Below, one piece after another: positions 686 through 39,103 of a stretch of 64,000 nt of DNA; position 1 is the first letter of the stretch; each line of letters begins with the position of its first letter. The notes beneath the pieces were generated by a model. The model had not been told where the DNA came from and ran no database searches. It saw only the letters and a program-made list of their open reading frames with translations. This stretch comes from Aeromicrobium sp. Leaf245 (GTDB taxonomy: Bacteria > Actinomycetota > Actinomycetes > Propionibacteriales > Nocardioidaceae), in the NCBI RefSeq assembly GCF_942548115.1, contig NZ_OW824151.1, positions 1,736,001 through 1,800,000 on the forward strand. The letters are read 5' to 3'. The position numbers and the translations under genes were made by a program.

Positions 686-1875
686 GCACCTCCAGCCCCC
701 GCGGCACGCGCAACCTCTGGCGCGTCGTCGCCCAGCGAGAGATCACCACCCGCGTGTGGGAGAAGTCGTTCCTGATCACCACGGTCCTGTCCTTCGTCAT
801 CATCCTGGGCGGCATCATCGGTGCCGACTTCTTCCAGGGACGCGACCAGGACCGCACCGTCGCCGTCGTGGACCCGGCCGCCGCCGAGGTGGTCGACGCC
901 GCGTCGGCGGTCGCGACCAACCTCGACGACCGCGTGACGATCAAGGCCGACCGGGTCGACGACGCCAGGGCGGCCGAGCGTCTGGTCGAGGACGGGGACG
1001 CCGACGCGGCGCTCCTGGCCACCAACGACGGCTACGAGGTCGTGGGCGACCGCGACGTCGACTCCACCGTCTCCCAGGCCCTCGAGATCGCCGTGTCCTC
1101 GCAGGCGCTGGAGAGCAACGCCGCCGCGCAGGAGGTCGACCTGAGCGCCCTGCAGTCCGGGACGACCACGCAGGAGCGTCTGCTCGACCCCGCGTCGAAG
1201 GACGCGGGCCTGCGGCAGGCGGCCGCCTTCGGCTTCATCCTGCTGTTCTTCCTGACGGCGATCGGCTTCGGCATGGCCATCGCGGGCAGCGTGACGCAGG
1301 AGAAGGAGAGCCGCGTCGTGGAGATCCTCGCCGCCGCCGTCCCGATCCGGCAGCTGCTGTGGGGCAAGATCGCCGGCAGCACCGTGCTGGCGATCGGGCA
1401 GATCGTCCTGTTCGTCGCCGCCGCGGCGATCGGGCTCGCGGTCACGGGCCAGCTGTCCGGGCTCGAGGTCGTGGCCCCGGCGATGATCAGCTACATCGGC
1501 TTCTTCGTGATCGGCTTCGCCGCGCTGGCGAGCCTCTGGGCCGTCGCCGGCTCCCTGGCGTCGCGCCAGCAGGACCTGCAGTCGACCACCATGCCCGCGC
1601 AGATGCTGCTGATGGTGCCGTACTTCGTGTACTTCTTCGCCGGGGACGCGGTCAAGGAGGTCCTGTCGATGGTCCCGATCATCTCCACGATGCTCATGCC
1701 GGCGCGGATGGCCGAAGGAGCGGTCCCGGCCTGGCAGATCGCGCTCGCGCTCGGCGGCACGATCGTGGTCGCCGCGGTCATGGTCCGGGTCGGGGCCGCC
1801 GTCTACGAGCGGACCCTGCTGCGCACCGGGGACAAGATCTCCTACCGCGAGGCGCTGGCCAGCTCCGACGCCTGA
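682..1875 (+). CDS. ABC transporter permease (NatB/YhaP-like, ABC-2 family)
   Basis: Membrane subunit of the exporter whose ATPase lies immediately upstream. The protein has 397 residues: one transmembrane segment near residues 25-45, a large extracytoplasmic domain (about 50-175), then a block of five to six hydrophobic segments from about residue 180 to 375. This is the ABC2_membrane_3 layout. The motif TQEKESRVVEILAA after the second membrane segment is typical of NatB/YhaP proteins. It ends in convergence with lipB, and a strong hairpin that lies inside the lipB 3' end probably terminates both. The substrate cannot be read from the sequence. Confidence 0.9.
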   Translation: MSTSSPRGTRNLWRVVAQREITTRVWEKSFLITTVLSFVIILGGIIGADFFQGRDQDRTVAVVDPAAAEVVDAASAVATNLDDRVTIKADRVDDARAAERLVEDGDADAALLATNDGYEVVGDRDVDSTVSQALEIAVSSQALESNAAAQEVDLSALQSGTTTQERLLDPASKDAGLRQAAAFGFILLFFLTAIGFGMAIAGSVTQEKESRVVEILAAAVPIRQLLWGKIAGSTVLAIGQIVLFVAAAAIGLAVTGQLSGLEVVAPAMISYIGFFVIGFAALASLWAVAGSLASRQQDLQSTTMPAQMLLMVPYFVYFFAGDAVKEVLSMVPIISTMLMPARMAEGAVPAWQIALALGGTIVVAAVMVRVGAAVYERTLLRTGDKISYREALASSDA

Positions 1876-1886
1876 GTCGTCAGCGG

Positions 1887-2606
1887 CTAGCCGGGAAGAC
1901 CGAGCACGGGCACCTCCGGGGGGTGCCCGTGCTCGGCCGTCTGCAGGTCCGGCGACGGCGTGTAGGGCTCCCACGCGAGCAGGTCCACCAGGTGCGGGCG
2001 GACGGCCGCCGCGGCCTCGGGGACGGTCACGTCGCGCCCGAGCTCCTTCGACAGCGTGGTGACCCCGGCGTCGGCGATGCCGCAGGGGACGAACCGGTCG
2101 TACCAGTCGAGGTCGACGTCGGCGTTGAGCGAGAAGCCGTGCATCGTGACGCCGCGGGTCACGCGGATGCCGATCGCCGCGACCTTGCGCTCCGGGCCAC
2201 GGGCGTCGGCCGCGAGCCACACGCCCGAGCGGCCCTGGACCCGACCGGCCGCGACGCCGAGGTCGGCGACCGCGCGGATGAGGGCCTCCTCCACGCGCCG
2301 GACGTAGTCGACGACGAGCACGTGCGACGGGAGCTTCGTGATCGGGTACCCGACCAGCTGGCCCGGGCCGTGGAAGGTGATCTTGCCGCCGCGGTCGACG
2401 TCGACGACGGGGGTGCCGTCGAACGGACGCTCGTGCGGCTCGGTGCGCTTGCCTGCCGTGTAGACGGGCGGGTGCTCGAGGAAGAGGGCGGTGTCGTCGA
2501 TCTCGCCGGCCACGCGCTGGGCGTGCAGCTCGCGCTGCAGCTCCCAGGCCGCCTCGTAGTCCAGAGCGCGCTCGCCGTACCAGTCGTCGATGATCTCCAG
2601 GGTCAC
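1887..2606 (-). CDS. lipB: Octanoyl-[acyl-carrier-protein]:protein octanoyltransferase LipB
   Basis: Transfers the octanoyl group from ACP to lipoyl domains, the first step of endogenous lipoate synthesis. The 239-residue protein has the family motif [17 protein letters not shown] and the catalytic pair expected for LipB: Cys in VPCGI and Lys in [11 protein letters not shown]. The GTG start at 2606 is preceded by TACCGT seven bases upstream, which suggests leaderless transcription, although AGGAGG also lies directly before the GTG. lipA, which often follows lipB, is not adjacent because the next gene is the convergent ABC permease. Likely clients are the E2 protein SucB encoded nearby, the glycine cleavage H protein and pyruvate dehydrogenase E2. 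Confidence 0.95.
1900..1936. terminator. Bidirectional terminator hairpin inside the lipB 3' end
   Basis: A perfect 15-bp inverted repeat (arms 1900-1914 and 1922-1936, 7-nt loop) lies between two convergent genes. It is within the last codons of lipB, whose stop is at 1887, and 25 bp past the stop of the ABC permease. There is no U-tract, as is common in actinobacteria. Termination is inferred from the position and the stem strength. Confidence 0.6.
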
Positions 2607-26941: not shown

Positions 26942-28126
26942 GTGAGGTCAACGTTCTTGGGGCACCGCGTCGTGCTCGTCGTCGTGGCGATCGCGTCGCT
27001 CCTGGCAGCCTGCACCTCGGGCGGATCGCTCCGTGAGGCCGTGGCCCCCAAGGAGCCGGCCGTCGTCACGGCCAACGTCAAGGACAAGGCGGCCGACGTG
27101 CCCGTCGACACCCTCGTGGAGGTCGACGTCGAGCACGGGACGATCGTCGAGGCCTCCCTGTCCACCGAGGACGGCGCCGACGCCATCGAGGGCGAGGGTG
27201 GCGAGTCCGGCTGGACGGCGGCCTCGCGGCTCGAGCCCGGCACGGCCTACACGCTCACCGCGCAGGTCCGTGGCGACGACGGCAAGGACGTCGACCTCGT
27301 GCGCACGTTCACGACCCAGACGCTGACCCTGGACGACCAGACCTATCCGTCGGTGGCTCCGCTCAAGGGCGAGACGGTCGGCGTGGGCATGCCGGTCATC
27401 GTCACCTTCGACATCCCCGTGAAGAACCGGGAGCTGTTCGAGGAGAACATGCACGTCCGGTCCACCCCCGAGGTCGAGGGGTCGTGGCACTGGATCAGCG
27501 ACTCCGTCGTGCACTACCGCCCCGAGCGCTACTGGCCCGCCGGGACGAAGGTGACGGTGGACCTCGACCTCAACAGCCTTCCCGCCGGGGGAGGGGTGTA
27601 CGGCCAGCAGGACCAGGACATCCCCTTCACGATCGGCAAGAAGGTCGTGACCACGGTCGACGTCGCCAAGCACACGCTGACGATGAGCGTCGACGACGAG
27701 AAGCTGCGCACGATCCCGGTGTCCACCGGCAAGCCCGGGAACGAGACCCGGCGCGGCACCAAGGTGATCATGGAGAAGTTCTCCTCGGTCGACATGGACG
27801 CCGCCACCACCGGCGTGGACTCCTCCGATCCCGACTACTACGACATCAGCGACGTCCGCTGGGCCATGCGGGTCACGAACTCCGGCGAGTTCCTGCACGC
27901 CGCCCCCTGGTCGGTCGGTTCGCAGGGCCGCGAGAACGTGAGCCACGGCTGCGTGGGCATGAGCACCGCCGATGCCAAGTGGGTCTACGACCGCTCGCGC
28001 CGCGGCGACGTCGTGCGCTTCGTGAACAGCCCCCGGTCCCTCGAGGACAACAACGGCTGGACCGACTGGAACGTCGACTGGAGCGAGTGGACCAAGGGGT
28101 CGGCGCTGAGCTCCGCGGCGTCCTGA
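26942..28126 (+). CDS. L,D-transpeptidase (YkuD) lipoprotein with Ig-like domains
   Basis: Cross-links peptidoglycan stems (3-3 links) outside the membrane. 394 residues: lipoprotein signal (hydrophobic VVLVVVAIASLLAA then lipobox LLAAC), two Ig-like domains (about residues 40-150 and 130-240; ETVGVGMPVIVTFDIPVKNR marks the second), then the catalytic YkuD domain with HAAPWSVGSQGRENVSHGCV, where the Cys of SHGCV is the nucleophile and the His completes the pair. A C-terminal Trp-rich tail (NGWTDWNVDWSEW) follows. GTG start at 26942 with TAGGAT six bases upstream, so leaderless. It is followed by a 1.1-kb repeat region without genes. Confidence 0.93.
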   Translation: MRSTFLGHRVVLVVVAIASLLAACTSGGSLREAVAPKEPAVVTANVKDKAADVPVDTLVEVDVEHGTIVEASLSTEDGADAIEGEGGESGWTAASRLEPGTAYTLTAQVRGDDGKDVDLVRTFTTQTLTLDDQTYPSVAPLKGETVGVGMPVIVTFDIPVKNRELFEENMHVRSTPEVEGSWHWISDSVVHYRPERYWPAGTKVTVDLDLNSLPAGGGVYGQQDQDIPFTIGKKVVTTVDVAKHTLTMSVDDEKLRTIPVSTGKPGNETRRGTKVIMEKFSSVDMDAATTGVDSSDPDYYDISDVRWAMRVTNSGEFLHAAPWSVGSQGRENVSHGCVGMSTADAKWVYDRSRRGDVVRFVNSPRSLEDNNGWTDWNVDWSEWTKGSALSSAAS

Positions 28127-28264
28127 GGGGCGTTCTGAGCCGCTGAGGGCGCTCTGGGGGGTCCTGGTTGCCGCACTCGGCTCTGGCGCTTTGCGCATGC
28201 TGCTGCGCCACTGCAGTGGGCTTTCGGGTGGTGCTGCGTCGCTGGCGGTGGGGCTTCACCTGCT

Positions 28265-28482
28265 GCTGCGTCGCTGGGGCTGCGAGTCGGGGTGGTCTCC
28301 GAGAGGGTCTCGACCTGAGCGGTGGGTCTCGAGTCGGCTGGGTCTGCTGGGCGCGGCGGGGTTCTCGCTCGATGCTGCGTCGCTGTGGCTTCGAGGCGGG
28401 GCGGCCTCCGAAAGGTCCTCGACCGGAGCGGGGGGTCTCGGTCCGGGTGGGTCTGCGGGGCGCGGCCACGATTCTCCATCTG
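28265..28482 (+). repeat. Two diverged tandem units of about 109 bp
   Basis: Unit one starts at 28265 and unit two at 28374 (both GCTGCGTCGCTG). The shared elements in order are TCTCCGA or CCTCCGA, TCTCGACC or CCTCGACC, GAGCGG, GGGTCTCG, TGGGTCTGC and GGGCGCGGC, roughly three quarters identical by eye. Inverted counterparts occur at 28770-28880 and 37310-37400. Confidence 0.75.
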
Positions 28483-28495
28483 CGCGGGATCCACG

Positions 28496-28543
28496 CACGA
28501 TTCTTCCTTCGCGTGGACCGTGCCACGCGAAGGAAGAATCGTG
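28496..28543. repeat. Perfect 21-bp inverted repeat (hairpin), 6-nt loop
   Basis: Left arm 28496-28516 begins CACGATTCTTCC and ends CGCGTGG; loop ACCGTG; right arm 28523-28543 is its exact reverse complement. A second, imperfect version follows at about 28574-28615 with loop ACCGTC. No gene overlaps it and it is far (over 360 bp) from the upstream stop codon, so it is an unlikely simple terminator. Confidence 0.85.
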
Positions 28544-28683
28544 GCGACGAAAAGGTGCCCGTACGGGCAGGGATTCTCCCTTCTCGTGGACCGTCCCACG
28601 CAAAGGAAGAATCTCTGCCCATCCGCCGCGCACCGGCGCCCCGGCGGACGCAGGATTCTGCCTTCGCGTGCTGAAGCCCGAAC

Positions 28684-28755
28684 GATGCTGCGTTGGTGAC
28701 GGGATCCCGTAGCGAAGGCAGCATCCTTCGACCCTTCACACACCAACGCAGCATC
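28684..28755. repeat. 15-bp perfect inverted repeat enclosing a GGGATCCC palindrome
   Basis: Arms GATGCTGCGTTGGTG (28684-28698) and CACCAACGCAGCATC (28741-28755). The 42 bases between contain GGGATCCC (28701-28708) and a second repeat-core GCGAAGGCAGCATCC, itself a near reverse complement of 28653-28667. The same arrangement recurs in locus 2, where the right arm has diverged. Confidence 0.8.
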
Positions 28756-29165
28756 TTGCGTCCCCCCGAACCACGCCCCGAGAACCCGACCGACCCCGGA
28801 CCCCGCCGCCGGTCGAGGCCCATTCGGAGAGCAGGTCGACTCGCAGCCACAGCGACGCAGCCGCGAGTGAAGAGCCGGCCGGGGCGACGCAGCAGCAAGG
28901 AGCGACCCGTTCACGACGAAGCAGCCTCAGGGCGAAGCTTCGTCGAGTCGGCCGCACCCGGCGATTCGCCCAGGTTCACCTGTCGTCGCACCCACGCAGA
29001 CGTCACCCCGCCGGACGCAGGATTCTGCCTTCGCGTGCAGAAGCCCGAACGATGCTGCGTTCACGACGGGATACCGCCACGAACGCAGAATCCTTCGACC
29101 TCCCACGCACGAACGCAGAATTCTGCGTCGCCCGGGAACGCAGAATCCTGCGTCCCCCGGGAACG

Positions 29166-29197
29166 ACGAAGGCCCCCGCCGGAGCGGGGGCCTTCGT
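29166..29197. terminator. Strong terminator hairpin next to qcrB
   Basis: Perfect 14-bp stem (29166-29179 and 29184-29197) with loop CGGA, 14 bp beyond the qcrB stop on the minus strand. It would end the ctaE-qcrCAB transcript; for the plus strand it would also stop read-through from the L,D-transpeptidase side. Confidence 0.8.
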
Positions 29198-29210: not shown

Positions 29211-30914
29211 TCAGTGCGACTTCGGGATGCCGGTCTCCGACACGCCCTGGAAGTCCTCACCGAGGTGCACGGGGTGCCCCTCGATCTCACCGAGGTGCTC
29301 CTCGGCGTGCTCGACCTCGGCCACGGTCGGCTTGTCGATCGCGCCGTGGTAGTAGAACGAGCGAGCCTTGTGGCGCAGCTTGGCCTTGCGTCCGGCCGGA
29401 GCAGCCACACCGTTCTCGTCCGTCTCGGCCGGGGCCTCGAGAGCCGGGACCCGGTCGTGGGCCGTGAGGCGGTACTGCTCGAGGACCGGGAGCGGAGCGT
29501 GACGCTCGGCGTAGCTGCCGTCGGGCGAGCGCTCGATGACACCCGTCTCGTAGCCGTGCAGGATCTTGTTCTGGTCGGCCCGCTGCAGCCCGATGCAGAT
29601 GCGACGGGTGATGAAGAACGCCGCGACCGGGAAGAGGAACAGGCCGAACCGGAAGATCCAGGTCAGGGCCATGATGTCGAGACCGAACTGGGTGGCGATG
29701 ATGTCGTTGCCGCCCGCCGCCCAGCCGACGCCGTAGAACGTCATGCCGGCCACGCCGAACGCGGTGCGCGTCGGGGCGTTGCGCGGACGCTCGAGCAGGT
29801 GGTGCTCACGCTCGTCGCCGGTGATCCAGCGCTCGATGAACGGCCACAGGAAGAGCGTCGTGAACAGGACGCCCAAGCCACCCACGCCGGGGATGAAGAC
29901 GTTCCAGCTCCAGGTGTAGCCGAGGAACGTGGTCTCGAGCGCCGGCATGAGGCGCACGAGGCCCTCGGAGAAGCCCATGTACCAGTCCGGCTGGGAGCCC
30001 GCCGTGACTTCCGACGGGTTGTACGGGCCGTACGCCCACACCGGGTTGATCTGGATGATGGCACCCATGAGGGCGGTGAAGCCGAAGACGACGAAGAAGA
30101 AGCCGCCGGCCTTGGCCGCGTACACGGGGAGCATCGGGTAGCCCACGACGTTGTCGTTGGTGCGTCCGGCGCCGGGCCACTGCGTGTGCTTGTGGTAGAT
30201 CAGCAGCAGCATGTGCGCGGCGATGAGGCCGAGCAGCAGCGCCGGGATCAGCAGGATGTGCGCCATGTACAGACGGGGGATGATCTCCTCGCCCGGGAAC
30301 TCGCCGCCGAAGATGAAGAACTCCACGTAGGAGCCCACGATCGGGACCGAGCGGATCATGCCGTCGACGAACCGCAGGCCCGTGCCCGACAGCAGGTCGT
30401 CGGGCAGGGAGTAGCCGGCGAAGCCTTCGACCATGCCGAGCGTCAGCAGGCCGACGCCGATGACCCAGTTGATCTCACGCGGCTTGCGGTACGCGCCCGT
30501 GAAGAACACGCGGAGCATGTGGGCGATCATCGCGCCGACGAACAGCGCCGCCGCCCAGTGGTGGATCTGCCGCATGAGCAGACCGCCACGGATGTCGAAG
30601 GAGATGTGCAGCGTCGAGGCGTAGGCCTGCGACATCTCCAGGCCCCGGAAGGGGGCGTAGGAGCCGTCGTAGACGACCTCGGCCATGCTCGGCTGGAACC
30701 AGAACGTCAGGAAGACGCCGGTCAGCAGCAGGACGACGAAGCTCCAGAGCGCGATCTCTCCGAGCATGAAGGACCAGTGCTCGGGGAAGACCTTGCGCAG
30801 GTTCTTCTTCGCCACACCGGCGAGCCCCAGACGGTCGTCGAGCCAGCCCACCGGACCGGCGGCCTTCTTGCCGAAGGCCGTGTCCTCGACCGGGGTGTAG
30901 GTGTCGTTGCTCAT
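29211..30914 (-). CDS. qcrB: Cytochrome bc1 complex cytochrome b subunit
   Basis: Haem b subunit with the quinol oxidation and reduction sites. 567 residues: eight or more transmembrane helices between about residues 45 and 430, haem-binding histidines in IHHWAAALFVGAMIAHMLR and in ALLLGLIAAHMLLLIYHKH, and a long hydrophilic C-terminal tail typical of actinobacteria. The start ATG (30914) overlaps the qcrA stop by 4 bp (ATGA). Last gene of the run; the bc1 complex forms a supercomplex with the aa3 oxidase encoded on the other strand. Confidence 0.97.
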   Translation of the reverse strand: MSNDTYTPVEDTAFGKKAAGPVGWLDDRLGLAGVAKKNLRKVFPEHWSFMLGEIALWSFVVLLLTGVFLTFWFQPSMAEVVYDGSYAPFRGLEMSQAYASTLHISFDIRGGLLMRQIHHWAAALFVGAMIAHMLRVFFTGAYRKPREINWVIGVGLLTLGMVEGFAGYSLPDDLLSGTGLRFVDGMIRSVPIVGSYVEFFIFGGEFPGEEIIPRLYMAHILLIPALLLGLIAAHMLLLIYHKHTQWPGAGRTNDNVVGYPMLPVYAAKAGGFFFVVFGFTALMGAIIQINPVWAYGPYNPSEVTAGSQPDWYMGFSEGLVRLMPALETTFLGYTWSWNVFIPGVGGLGVLFTTLFLWPFIERWITGDEREHHLLERPRNAPTRTAFGVAGMTFYGVGWAAGGNDIIATQFGLDIMALTWIFRFGLFLFPVAAFFITRRICIGLQRADQNKILHGYETGVIERSPDGSYAERHAPLPVLEQYRLTAHDRVPALEAPAETDENGVAAPAGRKAKLRHKARSFYYHGAIDKPTVAEVEHAEEHLGEIEGHPVHLGEDFQGVSETGIPKSH

Positions 30915-37099: not shown

Positions 37100-37545
37100 G
37101 TGGGGTGGGTCTTCTCCTCGACGCAGCCGCAGGGTGGGTCTGCGGGGCGCGGCCACGATTCTTCATCTGTGCGGGATCCACGCACGATTCTGCTTTCGCG
37201 TGCTGAAGCCCGAACGATGCTGCGTTGGTGACGGGATCCGGTAGCGAACGCAGCATCCTTCGCCCCCTCACGCACGAACGCAGAATCTTGCGTCCCCCCG
37301 AGCCACGCTCCGAGAGGCCGACCGAGCCCGGACTCGTCCGCCGGTCGAGGCCCTTTCGGAGAGCAGGTCGACGACGAGCCACAGCGACGCATGAGCAAGG
37401 AACGACCTATCCGGAGCAATGCAGCCGCAGGTCGAGACCGAGCCAGAGCGACGCAGCCGCAGGTCGAGACCCAGCCGGAGCGACGCAGCCGCAGGCGAAG
37501 ACCCACCCCGAAGCCCCGCAGCCGTCGGGGGACCACTCACGGCAA
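37100..37545. repeat. Repeat-filled intergenic locus 2 (no gene), related to locus 1
   Basis: The 559 bp between the exonuclease start (37043) and the small gene at 37603 have no credible gene. Three parts are visible. 37136-37191 is 56 bp matching 28449-28504 with two mismatches. From about 37186 to 37400 it aligns with 28653-28900 in the same order, including a 45-bp exact match (37195-37239 with 28663-28707) and GGTCGAGGCCC then TTCGGAGAGCAGGTCGAC. 37421-37524 contains three to four tandem 32-bp units starting GCAGCCGCAG, the reverse-complement form of the units at the left of locus 1. Locus 2 lacks the hairpin pair of 28505-28650, so it looks like the same element with an internal deletion. 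Confidence 0.85.
37421..37524. repeat. 32-bp tandem repeat, three and a part copies
   Basis: Units begin GCAGCCGCAG at 37421, 37453 and 37485, with a fourth start (GCAGCCG) at 37518. Each continues with GTCGAGACC or GCGAAGACC and then a Pro/Arg-coding-like CAGCCGGAGCGAC. Period 32, differing at a few bases per unit. The periodicity equals the 28233/28265 spacing in locus 1. Confidence 0.85.
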
Positions 37546-37602
37546 CCCCGACGCATGACGACTGAACGGTTTCTGTCGGGACGCCTGCCTAGCGTCGGCG
37601 AC

Positions 37603-37824
37603 ATGAACCCCGAATCCGTCGTGATCGACTGCGACAGCTGCCTCGTCCGCAGTCCCAGCGCGTGCGGCGACTGCGTGGTCAGCGTGCTGCTCGGCGGTCC
37701 GCCCCAGGGTGTCGAGGTCGACGCCGAGGAGATGGCCGCACTCACCGCCCTCGCCGACGAGGGTCTCGTGCCACCGCTGAGGCTCGTCACCCCCGTCTCC
37801 GGACCTGACGTCCAGGCCGGGTGA
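37603..37824 (+). CDS. Small cysteine-rich conserved-type protein, 73 residues
   Basis: Begins MNPESVVIDCDSCLVRSPSA and contains C10, C13, C21 and C24 in the order CDSC then CGDC, a possible zinc-binding knuckle. The rest is acidic (VEVDAEEMAALTALADEGL) and ends with PPLRLVTPVSGPD. I recognise the layout as a small actinobacterial protein often found near the NlpC/P60 gene, but no function is known. The ATG at 37603 has TAGCGT at 37590-37595 with seven bases between, the same box and flank as upstream of the divergent exonuclease gene, so leaderless. Confidence 0.75.
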   Translation: MNPESVVIDCDSCLVRSPSACGDCVVSVLLGGPPQGVEVDAEEMAALTALADEGLVPPLRLVTPVSGPDVQAG

Positions 37825-37899
37825 CGCACCTCACCCCGCACAGGGCCCACGCGGTCCGTCGAGGGGTCGGGTCGTCGCCCGCTTCCTCGCGCCCTCGGT

Positions 37900-37905
37900 T
37901 AGACT
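37900..37905 (+). promoter_or_regulatory. -10 element for the NlpC/P60 riboswitch transcript
   Basis: TAGACT in the sequence GGTTAGACTCGGCA. Transcription from about 37912 would start just before the riboswitch. No clear -35. Confidence 0.45.
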
Positions 37906-37914
37906 CGGCAACCG

Positions 37915-38098
37915 TGCGTCCGGAGCATGCTGCTCACCCAGAGCGACATCGGAGGCACCGCCGAACCGCCGCGGACGTGGGGAAGACGTCCAGGGCGGAC
38001 CGGGGAACCACGTTCCTGGGGTGAATCGCACGGGCGCCCGCGCCCGTGGGTAGGGCAGACCTTGGCCCGAACCCGTCAGCTCACCCGGTAGGCGTCGA
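37915..38098 (+). ncRNA. c-di-AMP riboswitch (ydaO-yuaA type) upstream of NlpC/P60 gene
   Basis: The leader carries the conserved blocks I know from the ydaO/yuaA class in actinobacteria: GGGGAACCACGTTCC at 38003, TGGGGTGAATC just after, and CCCGAACCCGTCAGC followed by ACCCGGTAGGCG at 38067-38094. It lies 18 bp before the start codon of a secreted cell-wall hydrolase, a standard target. The riboswitch responds to c-di-AMP, linking wall hydrolysis to osmotic or wall signals. The exact 5' boundary is estimated. Confidence 0.85.
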
Positions 38099-38116
38099 GG
38101 ACACTGGAGGGTGCAC

Positions 38117-39103
38117 GTGCACCGACGAGGCCTGGCCCGTACACGCAGCACACGATCGACCCTGGCCACCGCAGCGGTGGCGGCCCTGACCATCGGCGTC
38201 ACCGTCGGAGTGGTCGGCCCCGCGCAGGCGGACCCGGTGACCACCGAGGACGTCGAGGCCGCCTTCCACGACGTCGAGGTGGTGGCCGAGCAGGTCAACC
38301 AGCTCGACGAGGACGTCAAGGACACGCGCGCCGAGATCGCCGACCTCGACGACGACATCGCCGACCAGCTGGCCGTCTACCGCAAGCAGCGCGACGCGCT
38401 GGGCGCCTCGGTCGTGCAGCAGCAGCTCGACTCGCCGCTGGGCCCCACGGTGAGCCTGTTCGGCAGCCAGGACCCCGAGGAGTTCCTCGAGGGCCTCGGT
38501 GCGGTCCAGGCGCTCAACAGCACGCGCGCCGACGCCGTCGAGTCCTTCGCCGCAACGGCCAAGGAGCTCAAGAACCGACGCGCCAGCCTGAAGGACCGCA
38601 AGACCGAGCTCGAGCGCGATCGCAAGAAGGCTGACGCGAAGCGCGCCCAGATCAAGGCCAAGTACGAGGACGCCAAGGCCGAGCTGGCCCGTCTGACGGC
38701 CGCCGAGCAGGCCGCCTTCAACACCAGCGACGTCGAGATCGGCTTCGAGGTCGACGCGAGCGGCCGCGCCAAGGCCGCGATCGACTTCGCGACCGCCCAG
38801 CTGGGCAAGCCCTACATCTACGGCGGCACCGGGCCGAAGGGCTACGACTGCTCCGGCCTGGTCATGAAGGCCTTCGCCGCGGCCGGCGTCTCGCTGCCCC
38901 GCGTCGTGGGTCCGCAGTACGCCGCGTCGCGCAAGATCTCCATGAGCGAGCTCCAGCCCGGCGACATCGTCTTCTACGGCGACATGTCGCACGACGGCAT
39001 CTACATCGGCAACGGCAAGGTCATCCACGCGCCCCGGCCGGGCAAGAGCATCGAGGTCACGAGCGTGTCCTACGGGTTCACCAAGGCCGGACGCGTCGTC
39101 TGA
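38117..39103 (+). CDS. NlpC/P60 family secreted peptidoglycan hydrolase
   Basis: 328 residues. A signal peptide (RSTRSTLATAAVAALTIGVTV, cut near AQA), a long coiled-coil region at about residues 40-210 (VEAAFHDVEVVAEQVNQL and ASLKDRKTELERDRKKADAK), then the NlpC/P60 domain: KPYIYGGTGPKGYDCSGLV with the catalytic Cys, SHDGIYIG with the His, and VIHAPRPG for the third polar residue. The coil resembles RipA/PcsB-type regulatory domains. GTG 38117 is chosen because GGAGG is then six bases upstream; a GTG at 38111 is too close to it. Controlled by the c-di-AMP riboswitch. Confidence 0.93.
   Translation: MHRRGLARTRSTRSTLATAAVAALTIGVTVGVVGPAQADPVTTEDVEAAFHDVEVVAEQVNQLDEDVKDTRAEIADLDDDIADQLAVYRKQRDALGASVVQQQLDSPLGPTVSLFGSQDPEEFLEGLGAVQALNSTRADAVESFAATAKELKNRRASLKDRKTELERDRKKADAKRAQIKAKYEDAKAELARLTAAEQAAFNTSDVEIGFEVDASGRAKAAIDFATAQLGKPYIYGGTGPKGYDCSGLVMKAFAAAGVSLPRVVGPQYAASRKISMSELQPGDIVFYGDMSHDGIYIGNGKVIHAPRPGKSIEVTSVSYGFTKAGRVV

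Follow-up and report, generated by a model that had tools for sequence, protein, structure and literature searches.

The convergent genes ldt and qcrB of Aeromicrobium sp. Leaf245 are separated by about 1 kb of DNA rich in short inverted repeats, which raises the question of what kind of element fills this gap and how it came to be there. The window analysed here is a stretch of 64,000 nucleotides, corresponding to positions 1,736,001–1,800,000 of a single-contig genome of 3,463,989 bases (labelled G000). A previous reading, made from the letters of the window only, had proposed a mobile or amplified non-coding element, MITE- or BIME-like, or else a structured RNA. The answer put forward here, with a probability of roughly 0.6, is that the hairpins stacked in the gap are those found at the ends of AbiEi/DUF559-like nuclease genes, present here as dispersed copies, in a partnership resembling that of REP and RAYT but involving a different enzyme. 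Nuclease genes at other places in the genome are bracketed by the same types of module, a feature invisible to the sequence-only reading.

Region 28229–29160 of the window is a mosaic built from palindromic modules, and both of its neighbours face it, as had been recognised before (Table 1). The core GCAGAATC, GCAGCATC or GAAGAATC, or the reverse complement of these, occurs in 12 exact copies in both orientations from 28378 to 29147; together with three variants (28467, 28572 and 29113) this makes about 15, close to the fourteen or so counted previously. The tandem repetition of 109 bp described for the left part was recovered as well, and the two pairs of inverted arms place the centre of the large palindrome at about 28.56–28.62 kb, in agreement with the earlier estimate of 28.6 kb. 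Boundary module A is conserved over 20 copies in G000. A gene caller based on codon bias places no gene in the array, consistent with the former view that no open frame in it is credible, despite the mechanical ORFs of up to 341 amino acids that run across it. The related copy mentioned at 37.1–37.5 kb corresponds to a second array, which does not lie between convergent genes: the nearby minus-strand gene has its called 5′ end 78 bp away; about 650 bp beside it (37525–38176) carry no called gene. The hairpin at 29166–29196, which resembles the terminator of qcrB itself and is present in the gaps of most relatives, was left out of the repeat family.

Table 1. Features of the ldt–qcrB gap and of the second array, in window coordinates.
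Feature	Position	Strand	Remarks
ldt, L,D-transpeptidase (YkuD) gene	26942–28126	+	left neighbour of array
Outer left arm, GCTGCTGCGTCGCTG-type repeats and first boundary module A (28294–28313)	28229–28315		inverted partner 28811–28897, 77% complementary
Arm with boundary module A (GGTCTCCGAAAGGGCCTCGACCGG type), two tandem 94-nt copies	28264–28466		spacing 109
Tandem 94-nt copies	28264–28357, 28373–28466		84% identical, spacing 109
Inverted arms, pair 1	28354–28459 / 28776–28881		71%
Inverted arms, pair 2	28229–28315 / 28811–28897		77%
Lone core copy, CACGATTCTCC...	28467–28487	+	from direct-repeat comparison
E-type hairpin 1, GATTCTTCCTTCGCGTGG and inverse	28496–28543		21-bp perfect stem, 28496–28516 / 28523–28543
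E-type hairpin 2, GGGCAGGGATTCTCCCTTCTCGTGG...	28565–28620		ends read from sequence
Direct repeat, 133 nt	28634–28766 and 29001–29133		83%
D-type unit 1	28643–28766		four cores, two nested inverted pairs around GGATCC; 39 units aligned
Right arm (left arm inverted)	28776–28897		inverse boundary module A at about 28809–28830
D-type unit 2	29010–29133		83% identical to unit 1
Two palindromic 16-bp cores, ACGCAGAATTCTGCGT and ACGCAGAATCCTGCGT	29113–29153
qcrB, cytochrome b gene	29211–30914	−	right neighbour of array
Second array of the repeat family	37121–37524		one D-type unit and arm parts

Folded as single-stranded DNA, the 556-nt core reached −196.8 kcal/mol, compared with −132.7 ± 4.9 kcal/mol for 100 dinucleotide shuffles (z −13.1), and a z of −13.6 was obtained on folding it as RNA (20 shuffles). 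Compensatory covariation of the D hairpin found no support: RNAalifold returned a covariation term of 0.1 on the 39 aligned D units, with double changes in two of the 15 pairs. A known RNA family was rejected: the nine Rfam matches were all far below the gathering score, leaving unsupported that part of the earlier proposal which had invoked a structured RNA, as far as described Rfam families are concerned.

The copies are dispersed. A search of the own genome with 28449–28910, the check suggested by the sequence-only reading, returned at least 176 matches (the best 40 of 135 candidates were scored), about 20 of them near full length including that of the window itself, the others being 81–90% identical to it. 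A 13-base core pattern matched this genome 60 times, compared with 0 matches for the reversed control. With at most the best 11 candidates scored per genome, six of 58 genomes (own included) contained a match to 28449–28910: many copies were found in G000, G005 and G028 and a single weak match each in G014, G016 and G041, while one of the G005 copies, used as query, gave 191 matches in G005 and 183 in G028. Scanning of named genomes with a 20-base core pattern, a scan that may omit records of the window's own genome, detected 22 stretches, five in Aeromicrobium sp. CnD17-E and 17 in the Propionibacteriales MAG LacPavin_0920_WC90_MAG_72_22, the arrays of which are built like those of the window. 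Similar arrays are present in the own genome and in three relatives, at dozens of sites close to the ends of genes, in many cases where two genes converge. What stands of the earlier proposal is a dispersed, amplified, non-coding palindromic family with the looks of a BIME. Plasmid or phage copies were rejected, blastn having found no match to the array among 72,556 plasmid and 50,697 phage records. At two G000 loci (L098, 2430–3208; L100, 2475–3130) arms of module A surround another inverted-repeat family, GAGGTAGGTGRCGC.

Of 112 arrays with context in three genomes, 46 have convergent, 52 tandem and 14 divergent neighbours, as compared with 42 convergent pairs among 369 other gene pairs of the same loci; these counts, made with our own gene caller after dropping three arrays lacking context, are not independent because the fetched loci overlap. 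The median distance from array to nearest gene is 27.5 bp. Twelve G000 arrays, including both arrays of the window, have a flanking gene (at least 70% protein identity) in common with an array of G005 or G028. At the 25 loci common to G005 and G028, the array-free flanks are 93.9–97.9% identical (median 96.1) and the arrays 81–92%. When 48 arrays were compared, the orthologous array was the best match at four of these loci and not at the other 21, the ranking being made on local scores that depend on array length. Between these sister genomes array positions are conserved and sequence orthology is lost, and the ldt–qcrB gap itself is largely rearranged between them.

The genes ldt and qcrB are adjacent in 27 of 30 loci fetched from among the 42 genomes with a match. 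Seven relatives have a gap of only 16–110 bp free of repeats; in six species it measures 58–110 bp and keeps the terminator-like hairpin of qcrB, and in the seventh it is 16 bp long and without the hairpin. These short gaps suggest empty states of the site. The gaps of other relatives contain short inverted motifs of quite another kind, GACGTCATCAC, GAGTCACG, GATGATGC and GGTGAGCAACC among them. In G069 (L161) the corresponding gap carries a GGTCTCGATACG...ACTCGACC-type repeat, a further sort of gene-end repeat that is common in actinobacteria.

The link to a protein comes from the surroundings of particular genes. In G000 a single gene adjoining ndk (L105, 1848–2810, minus strand) has two D-type units next to it, one on either side. 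In a second lineage, one gene (P0002) lies between forward copies of GASGAGTCACGYASG and reverse copies of it; genes of this type give weak matches to MTES_1575 and DUF559. Homologues of P0002 and of the ndk-locus gene occur in 43 and 30, respectively, of 49 genomes of the genus, and most of those inspected are bracketed by inverted motif copies, the motif differing from gene to gene. The usual layout is a set of inverted motif copies, a TCCACAG box, the nuclease gene and again inverted motif copies; in G008 the motif is found solely upstream of the nuclease, where two GACGTCATCACGG-type hairpins are located.

Inverted 12-mers common to both 250-bp flanks were present at 37 of 44 nuclease loci (two short loci having been dropped) as compared with none of 116 control genes; the seven loci lacking them include L279 of G028 (gene at 1471–2424, minus strand), an example of E-type bracketing. 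Further nuclease loci were positive in 12 of 20 cases (450-bp flanks), and a third nuclease subfamily in nine of 11 (300-bp flanks). In a wider control, seven of 159 genes were positive, of which five turned out to be nucleases of the AbiEi/DUF559-like family, and the two that were not both lay in loci fetched because of the motif; among the genes of this control with intergenic DNA on both sides, three of 54 were positive, all of them nucleases. In G000 loci chosen as array-bearing, seven of 109 genes were positive with one to four common 12-mers, and three of 27 when only genes with intergenic DNA on both sides were considered. The repeats are very probably associated with the nuclease genes. 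A general tie of DUF559/MTES_1575 genes to the motifs scanned was rejected (of nine matches in four genomes, just the P0002 locus, in two genomes, bore these motifs), and later flank tests revealed that other nucleases carry other motifs.

TCCACAG or CTGTGGA, a heptamer resembling an actinobacterial DnaA box, was present within 150 bp upstream in 56 of 59 nuclease genes, L105, L273, L328 and L246 among them, and in four of 162 controls. Outside the genus, an annotated DUF559 gene on plasmid 9 of Tsukamurella tyrosinosolvens (L327, about 1430–2520) was seen by eye to lie inside a long inverted repeat with TTAACAGCGTTAGCCCAGG. A second match outside the genus, in Nonomuraea (L326), has no obvious bracketing inverted repeat.

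The modules of the window can be assigned to particular nuclease alleles. Its D units match both flanks of the ndk-locus nuclease of G000 with scores of 62–66 and those of the G005 orthologue (L277) with 47–51, and its E hairpins match the ndk-locus nuclease of G028 and G065 on either side with 30–38; random 200-mers, 200 in number and drawn from the window's first 26 kb, reach no more than 16 (D) and 13 (E). The E-type flanks of G065 also exceed the random maximum for D, scoring 21–27 against it, and D and E are therefore not wholly distinct. F-type hairpins stand on both sides of a further G000 nuclease (L328), the left one being identical at 47 of 54 positions to the F hairpin of array L109 and at 49 of 54 to that of L108; beyond these two arrays, F hairpins are frequent in G005, G028 and the MAG. 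The flanks of a third G000 nuclease (L273) match none of the window modules tested, and no nuclease with flanks matching module A was found.

Between G005 and G028, the ndk proteins are 99.3% identical and the adjoining nucleases 67.6%, with D-type flanks in the former genome and E-type flanks in the latter. Over four ndk-locus genomes, ndk proteins are 95–100% and nucleases 66–80% identical; gene and hairpins therefore change together at a fixed place. Furthermore, nuclease similarity correlates with flank-motif similarity (Mantel r 0.46 for 24 loci and 0.49 for 17 loci; 0 of 5000 permutations in each case), a correlation that partly reflects shared ancestry. The motif of the ldt–qcrB gap matches a nuclease motif of the same genome weakly (8 of 21, permutation p 0.035), and in G014, G019, G003, G016, G069, G033 and G061 it was absent beside the nucleases fetched, which form an incomplete set.

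A motif taken solely from the flanks of three nuclease genes (G032, G004 and G002), GAGAGACTTTGTT, was searched in the 49 genomes. It matched 41, 46 and 20 times, respectively, in these three, two matches in each being the copies at the nuclease itself, so that the flank-derived motif predicted dispersed repeats in three genomes out of three. There were 22 matches in G030, 0 in the remaining 45 genomes and one, in one genome, for the reversed control. G030, a genome 84% complete, is an exception: a search of it for a P0002-type nuclease of at least 50% identity found none, nor was a close nuclease present in ten of its contig stretches that were checked. Of 20 GAGAGACTTTGTT loci inspected, several of which belong to one site and two to the G004 nuclease, 18 map to DNA free of called genes and 17 have convergent neighbours. 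GASGAGTCACGYASG, first noticed in gaps, matched 53, 59, 43, 19, 8 and 3 times in G029, G012, G064, G015, G061 and G034, and at most twice in any other of the 49 genomes; these six are exactly the genomes having a P0002-type nuclease of at least 70% identity. The gap motif GACGTCATCACGG was rejected as a lineage marker, being thinly spread over 38 of the 49 genomes with maxima of 13 (G061), 12 (G033) and 10 (G030).

The proteins were compared in two alignments of 27 members each, A1 and A2, which are related to each other (hhalign probability 99.4%, E 2e-21). Invariant residues are D218, E229, G232, H235, D244 and R247 in A1 and D232, E243, D245, G246 and R262 in A2, the acidic ones being located in the nuclease-like half. 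While the L105 protein itself matched no Pfam family, mostly weak matches (E ≤ 0.01) were obtained for members of A1 (DUF559 in 6, AbiEi_4 in 5 and AbiEi_3_N in 1 of 27) and of A2 (MTES_1575 in 18, DUF559 in 10, AbiEi_4 in 6 and AbiEi_1 in 5 of 27). Profile matches to PDB entries were weak, the top ones being 3r3p ‘Mobile intron protein’ (E 0.0074), followed by 3hrl ‘Endonuclease-Like Protein’ (0.042), for A2 and PvuRts1I (E 0.049), followed by 3hrl (0.14), for A1; we take 3r3p to be I-Bth0305I. The nuclease as a plasmid gene was rejected, with two weak matches of P0002 and none of L105 among plasmids; among phages, P0002 had no match.

The observations may be brought together in a mechanism in which the nuclease gene resides elsewhere in the chromosome and its motif is scattered as non-coding copies at gene ends. 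The N-terminal AbiEi-like region would recognise the inverted motif, in units of about 21–24 bp, the C-terminal Vsr/EDxHD-type domain would nick or cut there, and repair from another copy would spread, swap and homogenise the modules by copying and gene conversion; convergent gene ends would be merely places that tolerate insertions. Cutting followed by repair from other copies would explain the fixed places, the lost orthology, the mosaics and the turnover of motifs. We infer binding, cutting and a causal role of the nuclease in spread and homogenisation from sequence comparison, and consider the complete mechanism somewhat better supported than an even chance. The pattern suggests a selfish or domesticated partnership of a nuclease with its own repeats, behaving like REP and RAYT with an unrelated enzyme.

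A regulatory network would account for part of the same data. The AbiEi-like protein would be an autoregulator, the hairpins by its gene operators, and the dispersed copies further sites or decoys with roles in chromosome organisation or in insulating transcription at gene ends, spread by ordinary recombination, with the nuclease domain being secondary. Such a reading is favoured by the AbiEi_4 and AbiEi_1 matches of some members, by the closeness of the arrays to gene ends and by the precedent of AbiEi and Rv2827c, each of which binds 23-bp inverted repeats lying upstream of its own gene and does not cross-bind (PMC7319586). Operators, however, need no motif copies downstream of the gene, where these are found too, and the conserved nuclease-type residues of A1 and A2 also speak against this reading, which is regarded as unlikely.

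That the repeats are MITE- or REP-like elements moved by some other transposase, with the nuclease genes as hitch-hikers or preferred insertion places, agrees with their being multi-copy, palindromic, intergenic and lineage-specific, but would explain neither a bracketing motif that switches with the nuclease allele nor the flank result of 37/44 against 0/116. Moreover, PF01797, the RAYT/Y1 family and the sole transposase family searched, was found in 0 of the 49 genus genomes, with the control positive in five of 14 named genomes. A RAYT/Y1 driver was rejected on this ground, and the label BIME-like fails in the strict sense of REP/BIME membership with its known enzyme; the transposase explanation as a whole is quite improbable. 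Plain gene-end hairpins, acting as bidirectional terminators or mRNA stabilisers and kept by selection and gene conversion without any partner enzyme, would suit the strong folding of the core and the excess of convergent neighbours in the overlapping loci (46/112 against 42/369). The 14 of 112 arrays between divergent genes, the separate terminator-like hairpin that qcrB keeps in relatives with a short repeat-free gap, and the bracketing of nucleases, which would go unexplained, make this the case only with very low probability.

The preferred reading, a nuclease partnered with its own terminal hairpins, can be set beside known systems. BOX, ERIC and other modular intergenic repeats are, like the present arrays, modular, palindromic and intergenic; to our knowledge, none has a cognate nuclease bracketed by its own repeats. 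The closest parallel is REP/REPIN/BIME with RAYT (TnpAREP), the ‘REPtron’, described in PMC8266576 and PMC8049555 as species-specific intergenic palindromes in inverted pairs and tandem clusters, with a cognate enzyme gene adjoining the same repeats and rarely or never found on plasmids; many-copy intergenic palindromes in inverted pairs are found here as well, and the nuclease is similarly scarce on plasmids. In contrast to that system, the enzyme is an AbiEi/DUF559-like nuclease and not an HUH (Y1) transposase, the modules are larger and mosaic, and GTAG is no constant foot: GTAG or CTAC occurs somewhere in 18 of 39 D units, in 13 centrally as CGTAG, and in none of E1, E2 and the three F hairpins checked.

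The weak profile match to 3r3p points to a likeness to EDxHD homing endonucleases. I-Bth0305I is an EDxHD enzyme that binds as a dimer to a target of nearly 60 bp (PMC3943268), about as long as the E and F hairpins; no intron or intein was seen here, however, and the putative targets are many dispersed palindromes instead of one allelic site. From the type IV antitoxin AbiEi and from Rv2827c, with which part of the family shares AbiEi-type matches, the present proteins differ in their nuclease-like C-terminus and in the genome-wide dispersal of the motif. No comparable system in print was found by a full-text search covering mostly literature other than subscription papers; in PMC12306157, RAYT and transposase have 0 mentions each.

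More tentatively, at slightly less than even odds, Vsr/EDxHD-fold nucleases with AbiEi-type DNA-binding domains could form a separate class of repeat enzymes which, by cutting and subsequent repair, spread and exchange the hairpins at their own gene ends and keep them alike, in the manner of a genome-internal gene drive, each allele defining a new motif and the same gene-end sites being repeatedly recolonised. The class may extend past one genus, as the bracketed DUF559 gene of Tsukamurella would indicate. If the reading is true, enzyme-paired extragenic palindromes would not be confined to HUH transposases, since in a high-GC Gram-positive genus a nuclease family unrelated to these would have come to live in the same manner. 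Nuclease genes belonging to a family whose function is unknown would thereby gain a suggested role, the occurrence of species-specific hairpins where genes end would be explained, and the genus would offer a natural system with many matched enzyme–motif pairs for testing sequence-specific nucleases and bacterial gene conversion.
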